This document shows positions 4,689 through 48,134 of a DNA stretch of 64,000 nt, piece by piece; positions within the stretch are counted from its first letter, which is position 1, and each line of letters begins with the position of its first letter. The notes under the pieces are model-generated. The model did not search any database. It was given only the letters and a program-made list of their open reading frames with translations, and was not told where the DNA came from. The translations under genes and the position numbers were made by a program. Origin of the DNA: a virus; IMG/VR virus record IMGVR_UViG_3300010938_000950, positions 124,001 to 188,000 of that record. One strand, written 5' to 3'.

Positions 4689-5570
4689 ATGTCTAAAGCT
4701 GATAAATTACTAAAAAGAGTCGAATTTTACGAGAAGATGGCATCATCTCAGAAGCCTGAGACCGTTGATTTGCTCAATAAAGCATCTCTTTTTGAAAGAC
4801 TAGCATTATATTCTGATCGTAAATCTTTCCTATCCGCTATTGCGCAGGGATTGCCTAGAGATATTCAGCAGACTGAAACTCATATTCGTAATGCAGTTAG
4901 TGCACTAACTAATGCTATTGAAAATTGGATTGCTACTAAGTCTGAAAGACAGGGTTATTTGAACAATTTACCTGGTGTACCACAGGCTATGAGCGCAGCA
5001 GCTCAGGCTGTTAAGAGAGCAAACTCTCTCGGCGCAAAATTTGATGTTGAAACTTTACCTGGATTATTACAGGCCGTTAGAAGTCTTGCATTTGTTGGAA
5101 ATTTGGGTGAAATGGGTGACGATGCTAAAAGAGCATGGATGTCTGACGTATTTCCAAAAGCTTCACAATTAATTGGTTTATTAGATAAACAGATGAAAGA
5201 TTTAGCTCAGTTCAAAGATGAATTTGGGCCACCTTCAACTCCAAGGGAAATGCAAAGCTTTGAGAGACACAATGTACCATCAGATACTGCTGGTGAAACA
5301 ATTGAACTAGATCAAAGTGCCACTCCAAAAACACAACCAAGAGGATATCCTTCAATTAATAGAGCAGACCAGCAGGCCGTGCTTAGATTCGTAACAGAAG
5401 AAGGATTGGGTTTCGTAGATCCGGCTAAAATGAACGATGGGGTACTAGGACCAGAAACTAGAAAAGCGCTTGAACTTGTCAAGGATTATTTCCAAAAAAC
5501 ATACCCACGAAATCCTCGTATGACTGATCAACAAGCTATTACCGCAGCAAAAACCCCAGCTAGAACTTAA
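4689..5570 (+). CDS. Helical protein with peptidoglycan-binding-like C-terminus, 293 aa
   Basis: The first 190 residues are helical and charged, with short coiled-coil-like stretches. The C-terminal part, about 225-270, reads AVLRFVTEEGLGFVD...DGVLGPETRKALELVKDYF, resembling a PG_binding_1 repeat (D-G-x-x-G-x-x-T-x-x-A-L). It might be a virion or lysis-related protein, but that is inference. A TATAAT at 4654-4659 lies 30 bases before the start, with AAAAGG as a weak ribosome-binding site. Confidence 0.7.
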   Translation: MSKADKLLKRVEFYEKMASSQKPETVDLLNKASLFERLALYSDRKSFLSAIAQGLPRDIQQTETHIRNAVSALTNAIENWIATKSERQGYLNNLPGVPQAMSAAAQAVKRANSLGAKFDVETLPGLLQAVRSLAFVGNLGEMGDDAKRAWMSDVFPKASQLIGLLDKQMKDLAQFKDEFGPPSTPREMQSFERHNVPSDTAGETIELDQSATPKTQPRGYPSINRADQQAVLRFVTEEGLGFVDPAKMNDGVLGPETRKALELVKDYFQKTYPRNPRMTDQQAITAAKTPART

Positions 5571-5644
5571 TATATAGTATTGGGCAGTTAGGCAAGCGCT
5601 CCTGCCAGGTCAGTACCAGTTCGGCAGATATACACCTTAGACTT

Positions 5645-5680
5645 AATGGCGATGAATAAAATCATCGCCATTTTTATTTT
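5645..5680 (+). terminator. Rho-independent terminator
   Basis: An 11-bp perfect stem AATGGCGATGA/TCATCGCCATT closes a 6-base loop and is followed by TTTATTTT. It ends the 3979-5570 transcription unit and insulates the zinc-ribbon array. Confidence 0.85.
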
Positions 5681-5772
5681 GATCAAAACCAAAGTTGATC
5701 TCGACAATTTTAAGGGGGATCTATAGGGGGATCAGGATCTTTTAGATCAAGATCGCCATCCAAAAATTGATC
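5681..5772. repeat. GATC-rich cluster with AGGGGGATCTATAGGGGG element
   Basis: Eight GATC tetramers begin at 5681, 5697, 5718, 5730, 5736, 5745, 5751 and 5769; about 0.4 would be expected by chance. Inside is GATCTCGACAA-N5-AGGGGGATCTATAGGGGG (5697-5730), which recurs at 28282. The cluster lies between a terminator and the first gene of the large operon. GATC density suggests a Dam-methylation-sensitive control region, a replication origin or a protein-binding array; none is proven. Confidence 0.6.
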
Positions 5773-5809
5773 AATTAGTTGTTGCGGCCTTTCATTACGG
5801 TGGTTACGC

Positions 5810-5837: not shown

Positions 5838-6509
5838 ATGAATTTACAAGAATTCATAGAACAACGCACGCACTGCCCAATTTGTAACACGGCATTGATT
5901 ACTCAATTTTTATCTAATCGCAAACAAAAAATTAAGATAGAGAATGATAGGTTAGTTGTTATTTTTGTAATGAAGGCTCTCCGAACAAATCAACAAGACT
6001 ATGAAGTTGGTTATGCTTTTAACCCACTTAACAATACATTTTGCGTAGAGTTTTATTCTGAATGGGATCATAATGGTCACGTCCCTATGCACATGATTGA
6101 GAAGTTCAACGATTTTCATACAAATTTGCAAACATCAGCTTCTGGAGTCTGTAAGTTTTACAGGAAGTGTACTTTTTGTAATAGGTATTCGAGAGCCAGC
6201 ACACCATTTAAATTAGATTTGAAGAATGGAAAATTAGACACTGGTTTATTTGATGGATTACAAATAGCTTACGAATCATTTGGATTAACATTACCAGTTG
6301 ATGATGGATTCAAAGTTATGTTTCTGAGTAATTTTTATGCACCAGTTGAGCAATCAGAACTTATGTGGTTCCGCGCTCCGGATGAATCTTCTGCAAGAGT
6401 AGATTATATGATACCCGCAAAACATTCAAAAGTAATAGTACCCCTAATTCCATTTATATCAAAGGAAGATACTACAAAAAGAGTTAATAATCTACTGACG
6501 TTTGCTTAA
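5838..6509 (+). CDS. Zinc-ribbon array protein, large type (first member), 223 aa
   Basis: This is the first member of a family that fills 5838-18303. Family members carry an N-terminal CxxC (here CPIC at 13-16), usually a second Cys pair (here CTFC near 117), a beta-rich middle, a V-x-P-L/LP motif and an amphipathic C-terminal helix ending in a K-x-x-L-L-x-F-S-like tail (here NNLLTFA). The large type has about 190-225 residues, the small about 105-135. The N-terminus MNLQEFIEQRTHC resembles that of the gene at 10628. The function is unknown; zinc binding is inferred. It ends convergently with the gene at 6506. Confidence 0.8.
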   Translation: MNLQEFIEQRTHCPICNTALITQFLSNRKQKIKIENDRLVVIFVMKALRTNQQDYEVGYAFNPLNNTFCVEFYSEWDHNGHVPMHMIEKFNDFHTNLQTSASGVCKFYRKCTFCNRYSRASTPFKLDLKNGKLDTGLFDGLQIAYESFGLTLPVDDGFKVMFLSNFYAPVEQSELMWFRAPDESSARVDYMIPAKHSKVIVPLIPFISKEDTTKRVNNLLTFA

Positions 6510-27947: not shown

Positions 27948-28560
27948 CCAGGGCTCCCATTCATCGCAATAACTTCCCGAGGTGGGGCGGTTGAGGGATA
28001 CTGACTCCCGCCCCATAACAATCCTATAACTTGACCTGGGAAGTTCTCGTCAGCATACCTGTCAAAAGCTGAAGGTGTACTGCCAGCCGGGTGACATGAC
28101 TCACTCGCGGTAATTGCGACCAAAGACTAGGAACAATACAGGCTGGGTAGCAGCTTCGGTTGTCCAACTGTATGGTCTAAGGTATAGGCTGATCTCCACC
28201 GATTGGGCGGGGTAGGAGACAGGGCTGGTATGCTGACGAGAGCCTCCCATTCACGGCGCAAAGATTCGGAATTGCGAACCGGATCTCGACAAAGCGTAGG
28301 GGGATCTATAGGGGGTATAGCAGATTCTTATCTGACAGGAGCCTACGGGTCAACGAGCCCCGTGCCAAGAAAACGAACACATACGCTGCCCACGTATAGG
28401 GGCTAATCCCGAAGTAACGTAATAGTAGGGAGTCTCAGTGTATGTAAGCAACCGTAAGGTTCGGTAGGAGTACTTGGTCAATCCCGTGGGTTCCTGCCAG
28501 GAAAGAATCGCTCCCATTCATGGGAAGCTGAGCGCAATTGACGAGCCGGAGGTCAAGGTT
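27948..28560 (+). other. Gene-free 600-base stretch with hairpins and shared element
   Basis: It has motif copies at 27954, 28244 and 28511, the hairpin GGGGCGG/CCGCCCC (27984-28014), ATACAG/CTGTAT and GCTG/CAGC pairings near 28130-28180, ACGGG/CCCGT near 28346, and at 28282 the element also found at 5697. No gene is supported before 28561. Confidence 0.5.
28282..28315 (+). repeat. Second copy of the GATCTCGACAA / AGGGGGATCTATAGGGGG element
   Basis: GATCTCGACAA, five variable bases, then AGGGGGATCTATAGGGGG: 29 of 34 bases agree with 5697-5730 in the AT-rich half. It shows that both halves share regulatory DNA. Confidence 0.75.
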
Positions 28561-37844: not shown

Positions 37845-37995
37845 CAAGGAATCGGGTTTGGTGTAAGAGTCTAGCCCTTGGCATCGGACCAAGGGAGGAC
37901 GAACCCAAGAGCACACAAAACACCTATGCTGCCAGGGCGATAGCGATTCAAACTGGTAGCTCCCATTCACCGCAACCGCAACCCGAGGAACAACG

Positions 37996-40086
37996 ATGAG
38001 CAACCGCGCTACCAACATCCTGCTTCGCCACAACTTCATCCACATCCCTGCTCCGAGCAGCGATACGGTGGTGGGTGCCAAGGAAGCTCTTGCCACCATC
38101 CTGATGAACCTGACCTACTACGGGAAGGCTCTCAGCCAGGAGGCATATGCCAAGCTCCTTCACCTGACGGGTGATGACTTGGTGTCCTGGTGGCAGGTTG
38201 TCGAGGCTGAGCTGAAGGACATCACGGGAGCCTCTCGCAAGATTGGCGATTTCGTGGTCTACAAAAACTTCCCCAAGGAGGTTCTGGACAAGAGCGCGGC
38301 CGAATACTGGCTCCCGCAGATCCTCATGTACTGGGGATTCCCGAAGGAGCTGTTCACCGAAGAGGTGGTGCCCCGTCCGAAGATGGACGAGCAGCCCAAG
38401 TGTACGGTGCTTCATCTCGCCAAGGATGGTCAGCTCCAAAACATCTTCACGTCCTACCTCAAGTCCCCGGCTCGCTGGAAGGACCATGAGCTGGCTGACG
38501 TTCTCTTCCTGGTGGATTGGTTTGCCGTCGATCTCGGCAAGCTGGCCTTCAAGGAGAACATGGTTCTCCTGGCTTCGGCTCTCATCAGCCGTGGCAAGGA
38601 CATCAAGGTCAACACGGCCACCGACGTTCTCCGTCTGGCTGTTGGTCTCAGCAACGGTGATGTCTCTCTCCGTGAGAAGAGCAAGCTCCGTTCCTTCAAG
38701 AAGAAGGAACGTCGATTCCTGCTCAACATGCTGGAGAGCTGCACCAATCTGACGGAGGACGTGGCTCGTAGGCCCGAGCTGTTCAAGCGTCTTCTCCACT
38801 CTCTTCACCCCGGCGACTACAAGCGGTCCTATCCGCAAGTCCTCAAGGTGATGAACAGTCTCTATCATGACGAGTTGGAGACTTTCAACTCTCAGGTGGA
38901 GGGCCTTCTGCTCGACAAGGACGAGCGAGTGCTGAAGCTTCTGGCTGGTCGCCCTGGCGACTTCCGAAGGCGCCTGGTCCACACGGTCAATCTCTTCGGT
39001 AAGAAGGCGGCTTCTGCCTTCACTTCTCAGGAAGTGCTGAGCAAGCTGACGGTCGGGCAGATCGTGGCTACTCGTTCCTTCCTGAACACGGTCAACGAGC
39101 GTACGGCTCGCATCTTCCCGCCCAAGGGGAACTGGAGTCGTGCTCAGTTGGCAGAGCCCCGCACGGTTGCCAAGACTCATCTCAAGGCCATCGACAAGGC
39201 GCTCGGTGCTGCGCTGGCTGCACGTGTTCCGGCAGTTGGTGTGCTCGATCCTGCCACCAGCAAGATCAAGCTGCCCAACAACGGAGAGGAAGGTCCCTAC
39301 ACTCGTGGAACGGTCTTCCCGATTCCCGAGGGAACGGACTTCATCCGCACGGCATCCTATTGGGATGTCAGCCAGTCTCGCTACACCTGGTTCGACAATG
39401 GTTGGAACTTCTTCGACCAGAACTGGAACCCGGTTGGTGCTTGCTGTTGGAACCAGCCCTTCTTCCCCAGCCGAGGGTACAGCTACTACAGCCGAGATCA
39501 GAAGCCTGCCAAGGATACTGGAGCGGTCTTCTCTGGAGACCCGACCATTGCCACTGGTAAGGCTGCCCAGATGATCGACCTGTATCCCGAGAAGCTTCGT
39601 GCTCAGGGAGTCAGGTATGCCGTGTGGAGCGTTCTCTGCTTCTCTCGGTTGACGTTCAACCAGGCGAACGATGTCTTCGCTGCCTTCCAGTGGGGCAAGG
39701 ATGCCAACAAGGGCAAGCTTTTCGAGCCGGCCCGTTGTCAGCTTGCCATCCCGCTCAAGGGTGACCAGCTCACCAAGTACGTCGTTCTCATCGACCTCGA
39801 TAAGAACGAGATGATCTACTTGGATGCTGGCCTCAAGAGCAGCACCAGCAGCGCAGCCATGAACGGCCCTCTTCTCCAGAAGACGATGCCGGCGTTCTTG
39901 GAGTACATCAACTCCCTCCCCTCCGTTCACGACTTGTTCCGTGAATCGGTGGACGCATCCAGCAAGACCAAGATTCTCTACTCCGACAAGGATGCAGAGT
40001 TGAAGGGTGAGCCGGCCTATGTTTTCCGCCCGGAGAACAAGGAGAACAAGTTCAAGCCGGTGGACCTGAACGGTCTTCTCGGATGA
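37996..40086 (+). CDS. Large protein resembling the MXAN_6230/SCO0854 family, TerD-like C-terminus, 696 aa
   Basis: This is the longest gene of the window. Residues about 205-245 (NTATDVLRLAVGLSNGDVSL, then RSFKKKERRFLLNML) and LFKRLLHSLHPGDYKRSYP match the core I recall for the bacterial MXAN_6230/SCO0854 family; RIFPPKGN and the C-terminal third (SYWDVS..., FFDQNWNPVG, GVRYAVWSVLCFSRLTFNQANDVFAAFQ, quoted in parts) match its TerD-like beta sandwich. The usual N-terminal RING part is absent. TerD-type proteins belong to calcium-binding stress and phage-defence systems. The role in a phage is unknown, perhaps subversion of such a system. GAGGAACG precedes the start. Confidence 0.72.
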   Translation: MSNRATNILLRHNFIHIPAPSSDTVVGAKEALATILMNLTYYGKALSQEAYAKLLHLTGDDLVSWWQVVEAELKDITGASRKIGDFVVYKNFPKEVLDKSAAEYWLPQILMYWGFPKELFTEEVVPRPKMDEQPKCTVLHLAKDGQLQNIFTSYLKSPARWKDHELADVLFLVDWFAVDLGKLAFKENMVLLASALISRGKDIKVNTATDVLRLAVGLSNGDVSLREKSKLRSFKKKERRFLLNMLESCTNLTEDVARRPELFKRLLHSLHPGDYKRSYPQVLKVMNSLYHDELETFNSQVEGLLLDKDERVLKLLAGRPGDFRRRLVHTVNLFGKKAASAFTSQEVLSKLTVGQIVATRSFLNTVNERTARIFPPKGNWSRAQLAEPRTVAKTHLKAIDKALGAALAARVPAVGVLDPATSKIKLPNNGEEGPYTRGTVFPIPEGTDFIRTASYWDVSQSRYTWFDNGWNFFDQNWNPVGACCWNQPFFPSRGYSYYSRDQKPAKDTGAVFSGDPTIATGKAAQMIDLYPEKLRAQGVRYAVWSVLCFSRLTFNQANDVFAAFQWGKDANKGKLFEPARCQLAIPLKGDQLTKYVVLIDLDKNEMIYLDAGLKSSTSSAAMNGPLLQKTMPAFLEYINSLPSVHDLFRESVDASSKTKILYSDKDAELKGEPAYVFRPENKENKFKPVDLNGLLG

Positions 40087-40225
40087 CGGACCAGCAATAT
40101 CGGGCGGCCAGATTATATCTGGCCCTCCGATACCTGGTGGTTGATTCAAGTCAGCCACCAAGTTTAGGAGAGTGTCTCCTATACGAGATGTGCTTTGCAT
40201 ACAAGCAAAAGCACGAGTGAGTTTC

Positions 40226-47075: not shown

Positions 47076-47271
47076 CTTGATCTACCTCGCATCTTATGCT
47101 GTCAAAAGCATCAAGGTGCTTCGATGGTTGACCATTGTTGGCATCGTGCTTCTTATACCTTACTATCTGTCCTACCAACTTTGGGCAGCGGCCATCTGGA
47201 ATGGCATCTTCTTGGTCATCAACTTATACCGACTCAAGCCCGCCAACAACTCATCACCAAAACCCACGTGA
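47038..47271 (+). CDS. Popeye/YgjV-like membrane protein, 77 aa
   Basis: Three hydrophobic segments: IHTANLIYLASYAVKS, LRWLTIVGIVLLIPYYLSY and AAAIWNGIFLVINLYRL. The N-L-I-Y-L-x-S-Y, L-R-x-L-T and W-N-x-x-F-x-x-I-N-L-Y motifs recall the membrane part of bacterial Popeye-like proteins. An alternative start lies two codons on. Confidence 0.64.
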   Translation: MLMLTHLLIHTANLIYLASYAVKSIKVLRWLTIVGIVLLIPYYLSYQLWAAAIWNGIFLVINLYRLKPANNSSPKPT

Positions 47272-48134
47272 GAAAAGCTGTACCGTTTCTCTTGTTCCTT
47301 CTGTCATGTACACTGAAGGATTCCCCATCAACTTCTCAGGGACCCGAAGTCCCATCTAGTCAGACCGTACGTCTTTCAGTAAAGGACGTACGGTCGGTAG
47401 AAAAACCCTCTGCCTGTCCTGCCGACATGGTAGAGATCGATGGGGATTATTGCCCCAACGAAGAGATTGTCTGTCTCTACAACACAGACAATGATGGCAA
47501 TAGATTGCCAGGTCCCGGCGACATCAATAAAGCATGTGGTGAGTACAAGAATCCCACACGCTGCTTGTCAGAGAAAGTGCATATGCACTTTTGCATCGAC
47601 AGGTACGAATGGCCAAACAAGCCCGGCCAGATTCCCCAAGATTGGATGAGCTTTTTTGACGCAGAAAAGGCAGTCAAAGAGGCAGGCAAACGCATCTGCA
47701 CTCACAAGGAGTGGACATTGGCGGCCGAAGGCCCCAACATGCATCCCTTGCCCTATGGTGATGGATATCATCGGGACAAGACGGCATGTAATTTCGATAA
47801 CAAGAATCCGGGAATCGACGTTTTCAAGTCGAAGCACCCGAATGATGAAGCATCCAAGGCGCTTCGGGCATTGCTGGTCCCCTCTGGGTCGCGACCCAAT
47901 TGCGTGAGTGACTTTGGTGTTCATGACATGAGCGGCAACATTGACGAATGGGTCGTCAATGAGAGTAGCCAAGATATGTGTATCAACAAAACCAGCGGTA
48001 ATTGCCGAACTGGCTTGATGGGTGGACATATCTGGCACGTTCGCAATGCCAGCCGTCCCATGACAACTGCCCATGGTGCAGGTTTTTCATGGTATGAAAC
48101 TGGTGCCCGAGCCTGTAAGGACATTCAACCATGA
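47268..48134 (+). CDS. Lipoprotein with formylglycine-generating-enzyme (SUMF1)-like domain, 288 aa
   Basis: A GTG overlapping the previous TGA opens a lipoprotein signal (FLLFLLSC). The body has the FGE-sulfatase fold markers: FCIDRYEWPN, the DAEKAVKEAGKRICTHKEW helix, CVSDFGVHDMSGNIDEWV and a final SWYETGARAC. In true FGEs two cysteines oxidise sulfatases; in many relatives, including phage receptor-binding proteins, the fold only binds ligands. Surface location suggests a binding role, by inference. Confidence 0.8.
   Translation: MRKAVPFLLFLLSCTLKDSPSTSQGPEVPSSQTVRLSVKDVRSVEKPSACPADMVEIDGDYCPNEEIVCLYNTDNDGNRLPGPGDINKACGEYKNPTRCLSEKVHMHFCIDRYEWPNKPGQIPQDWMSFFDAEKAVKEAGKRICTHKEWTLAAEGPNMHPLPYGDGYHRDKTACNFDNKNPGIDVFKSKHPNDEASKALRALLVPSGSRPNCVSDFGVHDMSGNIDEWVVNESSQDMCINKTSGNCRTGLMGGHIWHVRNASRPMTTAHGAGFSWYETGARACKDIQP

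Follow-up and report, generated by a model that had tools for sequence, protein, structure and literature searches.

The window analysed here is a stretch of 64,000 nucleotides, positions 124001-188000 of a 209,766-bp viral record (G000), which is a partial record of an uncultivated huge tailed phage. Near its start lies a + strand gene of 293 aa (4689-5570), here called the class B gene, which has no Pfam or PHROG hit and whose relatives are found just upstream of the corresponding site in G002, G003, G012 and G013/G001; in G007, a more divergent neighbour occupies its place. This gene is followed by an intrinsic-terminator-like hairpin on the + strand (AATGGCGATG...CATCGCCATT and a T-run, 5645-5679), conserved in G002, and then by a cluster of eight GATC sites (5681-5772). 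Within the cluster lies the subject of this analysis, a + strand site (copy 1, class B, 5697-5730) composed of TCTCGACA (5699-5706), a 7-nt linker, GGGGG (5714-5718), ATCTATA and a second GGGGG (5726-5730). Downstream of the site, a + strand block, TTGATCAATTAGTTGTTGCGGCC (5767-5789), is kept between G000 and G002 with one difference, and the next gene on the + strand (5838-6509) encodes 223 aa with a CPxC motif; G002 carries an extra gene between the site and the orthologue of this CPxC gene. The interval from the class B gene to its terminator (5571-5680) is well conserved between G000 and G002 and holds no long ORF, and is possibly a small RNA or a 3' regulatory element.

An earlier note on this DNA had claimed that eight GATC sites in 92 bp are far above chance and that a 34-bp element is shared with positions 28282-28315, and both claims were borne out. 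The GATC sites start at 5681, 5697, 5718, 5730, 5736, 5745, 5751 and 5769, while in 200 sequences simulated with a first-order model of the AT-rich 21 kb no 92-bp stretch held more than 5 of them, and 5681-5772 is the densest GATC cluster in the entire record. Only two of the eight lie wholly inside the shared element, and no additional GATC cluster accompanies the 28-kb copy. The two copies of the element are identical at 29 positions, and the window holds exactly two instances of the pattern GATCTCGACAA-N5-AGGGGGATCTATAGGGGG, both on the + strand (5697-5730 and 28282-28315). Extending the search to the rest of G000, with up to 3 mismatches allowed, left the total at two copies, with 0 expected from shuffled sequences. 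The many random copies that the note had considered were thus not found in the window or the record, nor did the strict pattern of the site family described below, as distinct from its relaxed form, have any match in 84,980 prokaryote species genomes.

Copy 2 (28282-28315, + strand) lies within the GC-rich zone, where the DNA around it is non-coding. Its upstream flank (28259-28281, + strand) resembles the flanks of class A sites, and copy and flank together (28259-28315) showed an 84% match to them. The non-coding, strongly folded stretch around it (27990-28520, + strand; fold z = -4.2) includes a 23-nt inverted repeat (28037-28059/28227-28249) enclosing 167 nt. This stretch contains no Rfam family, and a permissive search of the copy-2 region gave noise-level matches only. 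What the surroundings of copy 2 have in common with other copies is limited to the element and its flank. In G013 and G015, a + strand site of class F lies 50-60 kb beyond the class B site, in a zone of small genes, and copy 2 is possibly the F-type site of the window, with no flanking gene that proves orthology.

Gene by gene, G000 is collinear with a longer record, G002 (480,838 bp), over positions 273-480 kb of the latter, and 154 reciprocal best hits between the two fall mostly on a single diagonal. GC content jumps near 21 kb of the window, and a matching jump is present in G002 near 420 kb, in the same syntenic place; the ends of G003 are also GC-richer. Because the jump recurs in collinear G002, the two compositional halves belong to one genome, which upholds the earlier claim that the site links them. 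On the same grounds, together with the GC-richer ends of G003, a chimera at the jump is unlikely, and mis-assembly as the source of the duplicated element, the artefact considered in the earlier note, was rejected since G000 and G002 are collinear. A large-terminase profile matched in eight related records, with no match in the partial G000; the G002 terminase is less than 30% identical to its matches listed among phage records, and the site pattern was not found in the phage record collection used for that comparison. G000 and G008 are both incomplete. Contig ends near class C sites were considered as physical genome ends, and this reading was dropped because the records start and stop exactly at gene boundaries and because the place in G003 that corresponds to the end of G000 lies about 21 kb before the class C site there.

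A search with the core GGGGGATCTATAGGGGG retrieved huge-phage records in which TCTCGACA stands at a fixed distance before the core, and looser versions of the site were found by comparing the regions upstream of one syntenic gene. With the relaxed scan we obtained 49 stretches, and the family is present in about 30 phage records. Its pattern is TCTCGACA-N7/8-GGGG(G)A-N3..9-TA-GGGG(G), in which N3..9 is mostly A/T, with GAAC usually upstream and GTAG/TATA usually downstream. As a DNA site, the family is bipartite and directional. Its two G-runs are mostly equally long (4/4 or 5/5), and the distance from the box to the second G-run, by inspection of the alignment, varies from 19 to 23 nt. Of 45 copies, 35 have TATA in the 30 nt downstream and 9 have it upstream, while the downstream side is only slightly enriched in A+T (0.74 over its first 10 nt, with a background of about 0.66) and the upstream side is equally AT-rich. 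No dyad symmetry or palindrome was detected in the aligned sites. The copies of one genome are closely alike: linker identity was 0.86 within genomes and 0.41 between genomes, and spacer identity 0.74 and 0.46, respectively, and in G015 (a 433-kb record) an identical 36-mer is present at five sites. Beyond about 12 bases upstream, within-genome similarity drops to the between-genome level. The bare 17-mer gave 21 matches, of which five (L007, L012, L013, L022 and L023) belong to a single repeated context that is unrelated and has no upstream box, and a further one (L019) also lacks the box; these six were set aside. We also tested whether the CTCCCATTCAC motif could be a C-terminal peptide, and mostly rejected this reading. 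The site family is real and specific and apparently undescribed in huge phages; in the part of the literature covered, where such a sequence is poorly searchable as text, nothing was found on this motif.

In near-complete genomes the family has 3-5 copies, which are intergenic, widely separated, and conserved in locus and orientation. G002 and G003 have exactly three copies each, of classes C (- strand), A (+) and B (+), and a relaxed local scan of both yielded further sites only at chance level; the reversed controls gave 0-2 hits. Five copies each (F+, E-, A+, D- and B+) are present in G013 and G015, two genomes of 430-450 kb, where they are spaced by 103/109/98/92/51 kb and 92/85/60/86/110 kb, respectively. 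The chance of spacing this even is about 0.002 per genome for random points on a circle, a value that calls for caution, since G013 and G015 are relatives of each other, circularity of the contigs was assumed and the choice of sites was not blind. In nearly all genomes in which one conserved operon was found, a class A site stands upstream of it at a distance of a few tens of nt. The class A gene was considered as an HU/IHF homologue, which we do not claim, as its Pfam match was sub-threshold, no PDB hit was obtained and the model was weak and all-helical. By gene context, 17 of the 49 distinct copies are divergent, 16 are antisense between co-directional genes, 9 are sense between co-directional genes, 3 are convergent, and 4 have no called gene on one side. 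With a third of the copies antisense between co-directional genes, a plain mRNA promoter is disfavoured, and a DNA site fits better. The class A site of L124 and the class B site of G013 are still in place although the gene downstream is on the - strand, which speaks against both a plain mRNA promoter and a leader RNA.

To our knowledge, the start of DNA copying in 400-500-kb phages is obscure for most uncultivated groups. We tentatively read the sites as shared replication-initiation sites resembling the oriF/oriG-type origins of phage T4, a proposal made by analogy that is the most likely of the readings considered and to which we would give somewhat less than an even chance. In this model, the TCTCGACA box and the G-run would be recognised by a phage factor, the TATA region would be melted by RNA polymerase or an initiator, and the second G-run would be the start of a transcript or primer that invades the downstream DNA and primes the leading strand. 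Several spaced sites would allow a 450-kb genome to be copied from several points. T4 has at least 5 dispersed origins, and its oriF and oriG are phage-regulated promoters in which a regulator box near -30 and a -10 element are followed by an AT-rich downstream unwinding element (PMC3016281). The present sites are similar in that several of them (3-5) are dispersed over each near-complete genome. A box also precedes a TATA here, at a variable spacing and with TATA-containing DNA downstream, and these parts may correspond to the regulator box, the -10 and the unwinding element of T4. The sites differ from the origins of T4, which have no motif in common, by repeating one nearly invariant sequence. 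Linkers and spacers so alike within a genome would be expected if a single trans-acting factor reads all copies.

The earlier note had suggested an origin or a site for a DNA-binding protein. The low-copy, dispersed and intergenic occurrence of the family, with conserved position and orientation, supports that suggestion, but the GC-skew analysis that the note had put forward for detecting an origin does not: neither GC skew nor four-fold-site skew changed sign at the sites of G002 or G003. At least two T4 origins also lack a change in strand skew (PMC3016281). No replication gene was recognised beside a site. Also counting against an origin of this type are the common motif, which T4 origins lack, the varying distance from the box to the second G-run, which would be odd for a rigid promoter, and the slightness of the A+T enrichment downstream.

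Replication initiation would overlap with the function of a special promoter, given that the T4 model origins are themselves phage-regulated promoters. A phage-specific promoter as such, with a T7-like CTATAGGG core or read by the phage's own sigma-like factor and producing a few early transcripts, is conceivable though unlikely. TATA followed by a G-run resembles the starts of T7-family promoters, such as those of T7 and K11, and the CTATAGGG(G)-like core is shared with promoters of the single-subunit RNA polymerases of this family. The position of class A sites just ahead of the conserved operon would also suit a promoter, and a Sigma70_r2 match was obtained in 6 of 7 records searched, weakly in G013. 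Compared to T7-family promoters, however, the upstream box is about 20 bp further out here and the spacer is variable, no such polymerase was found, and many copies are not sense-upstream of a gene. PF00623, an RNA polymerase family, was not detected, and PF00940 had no match in 9 records, the latter a weak absence as the control set was also without a match. A general sigma-dependent class would also be expected to have more than 3-5 copies. At the 16 antisense sites, a promoter would yield antisense or small RNAs, and the 3 convergent copies also argue against this reading.

A chromosome-organising, segregation or packaging anchor, in which a protein binds the dispersed sites and gathers them or marks the DNA, appears rather improbable. 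The roughly even spacing and mixed strand orientation of the sites in G013 and G015 are consistent with it, as is the homogeneity of copies within a genome. The sites also resemble parS/ParB centromere sites in being few, conserved and dispersed, but they have no palindrome, and no ParB scored above the family cut-off in 7 records, with one weak sub-threshold match in G003. Tyrosine and serine recombinase genes, which a site-specific recombination site would call for, were likewise not detected in the records searched, with positive controls. A more specific form, in which identity-matched anchors pair across the 450-kb chromosome, for example via their two G-runs, and set up domains of about 100 kb for copying or packaging, is a long shot; such anchors would be a phage counterpart of directional loop anchors.

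The methylation-sensitive switch proposed in the earlier note has lost ground, and we regard a role of GATC methylation in the function of the site as highly improbable. In its favour, two of the three sites of G002, C and B, are where the two densest GATC clusters of that whole genome lie, the densest cluster of G000 is at copy 1, and GATC crowding occurs at the C site of G008 as well. However, no clusters were found at class A sites or at the sites of G003 or G013, and between G000 and G002 the crowding is conserved while the positions mostly are not. The note had called for a search for a phage Dam methylase; neither MethyltransfD12 (PF02086) nor Dam families were detected in G002 or in the incomplete G000 and G008, where a host enzyme might supply the methylation. 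PF02086 D12-type methylases are present in G003, G013, G015 and G016, and the lineages having MethyltransfD12 are without GATC clusters at their sites. The likeness to GATC-rich origins such as E. coli oriC and P1 oriR consists of a GATC cluster beside the site in one lineage; unlike in those origins, the clusters lie outside the conserved site, no phage Dam was detected and no iterons were seen. GATC crowding is thus a lineage-specific accessory and not part of the site core.

A cis-regulatory RNA or riboswitch in leader transcripts can hardly be credited: copy 2 does lie within a strongly folded region, but the folded surroundings are not common to other copies, zero compensatory pairs were observed over 20 copies, where the only predicted helix has 4 invariant pairs, no Rfam family matched in the window at gathering thresholds, and both gene orientations occur at the sites.

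Being short, specific, low in copy number and fixed in position, the site tells precisely where to look in metagenome read depth that already exists, and further members of this phage group can be recognised by its pattern. Should the sites be origins, these phages would have a multi-origin chromosome with a shared motif, unlike T4.

Several other features of the window and its relatives were observed. An 11-base motif, CTCCCATTCA(C/T), has 53 + strand copies in the GC-rich zone of G000 and one - strand copy elsewhere. In the window it ranges over 21110-63350, on the + strand only, and it extends to 203.6 kb in G000; in G002, 57 copies, all on the + strand, are located at 420-480 kb. In both records there is roughly one copy per gene. 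Its commonest distance is 21 nt before an RBS-bearing start codon (12 cases in G000 and 10 in G002). The motif resembles a promoter or leader element serving individual genes and is absent from G003. At about 8.9-17.7 kb of the window and in L056 (G003, 64.7-65.4 kb), many small, unrelated-looking proteins end alike, in K-x-K-T-x-L-x-F-S or KLKAFL, with a tail that often overlaps the start codon of the next gene, and several of them have an N-terminal CPxC; a shared C-terminal tag or an expanded paralogue family is possible. Outside the window, a 214-aa open frame (G000:76261-76890) with a partial match to Sigma70 region 2 is syntenic in G000 and G002, with matches also in G003, G013, G015 and G016, and is a candidate phage sigma factor. 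Two long frames overlap on opposite strands, one of 750 aa (37948-40200, -) and one of 696 aa (37996-40086, +), the latter matching phrog_33734. Further along the window, 47124-48134 encodes a protein with an FGE-sulfatase-type domain, and 59402-60550 one with SprT-like, DUF2786 and DUF7168 matches.
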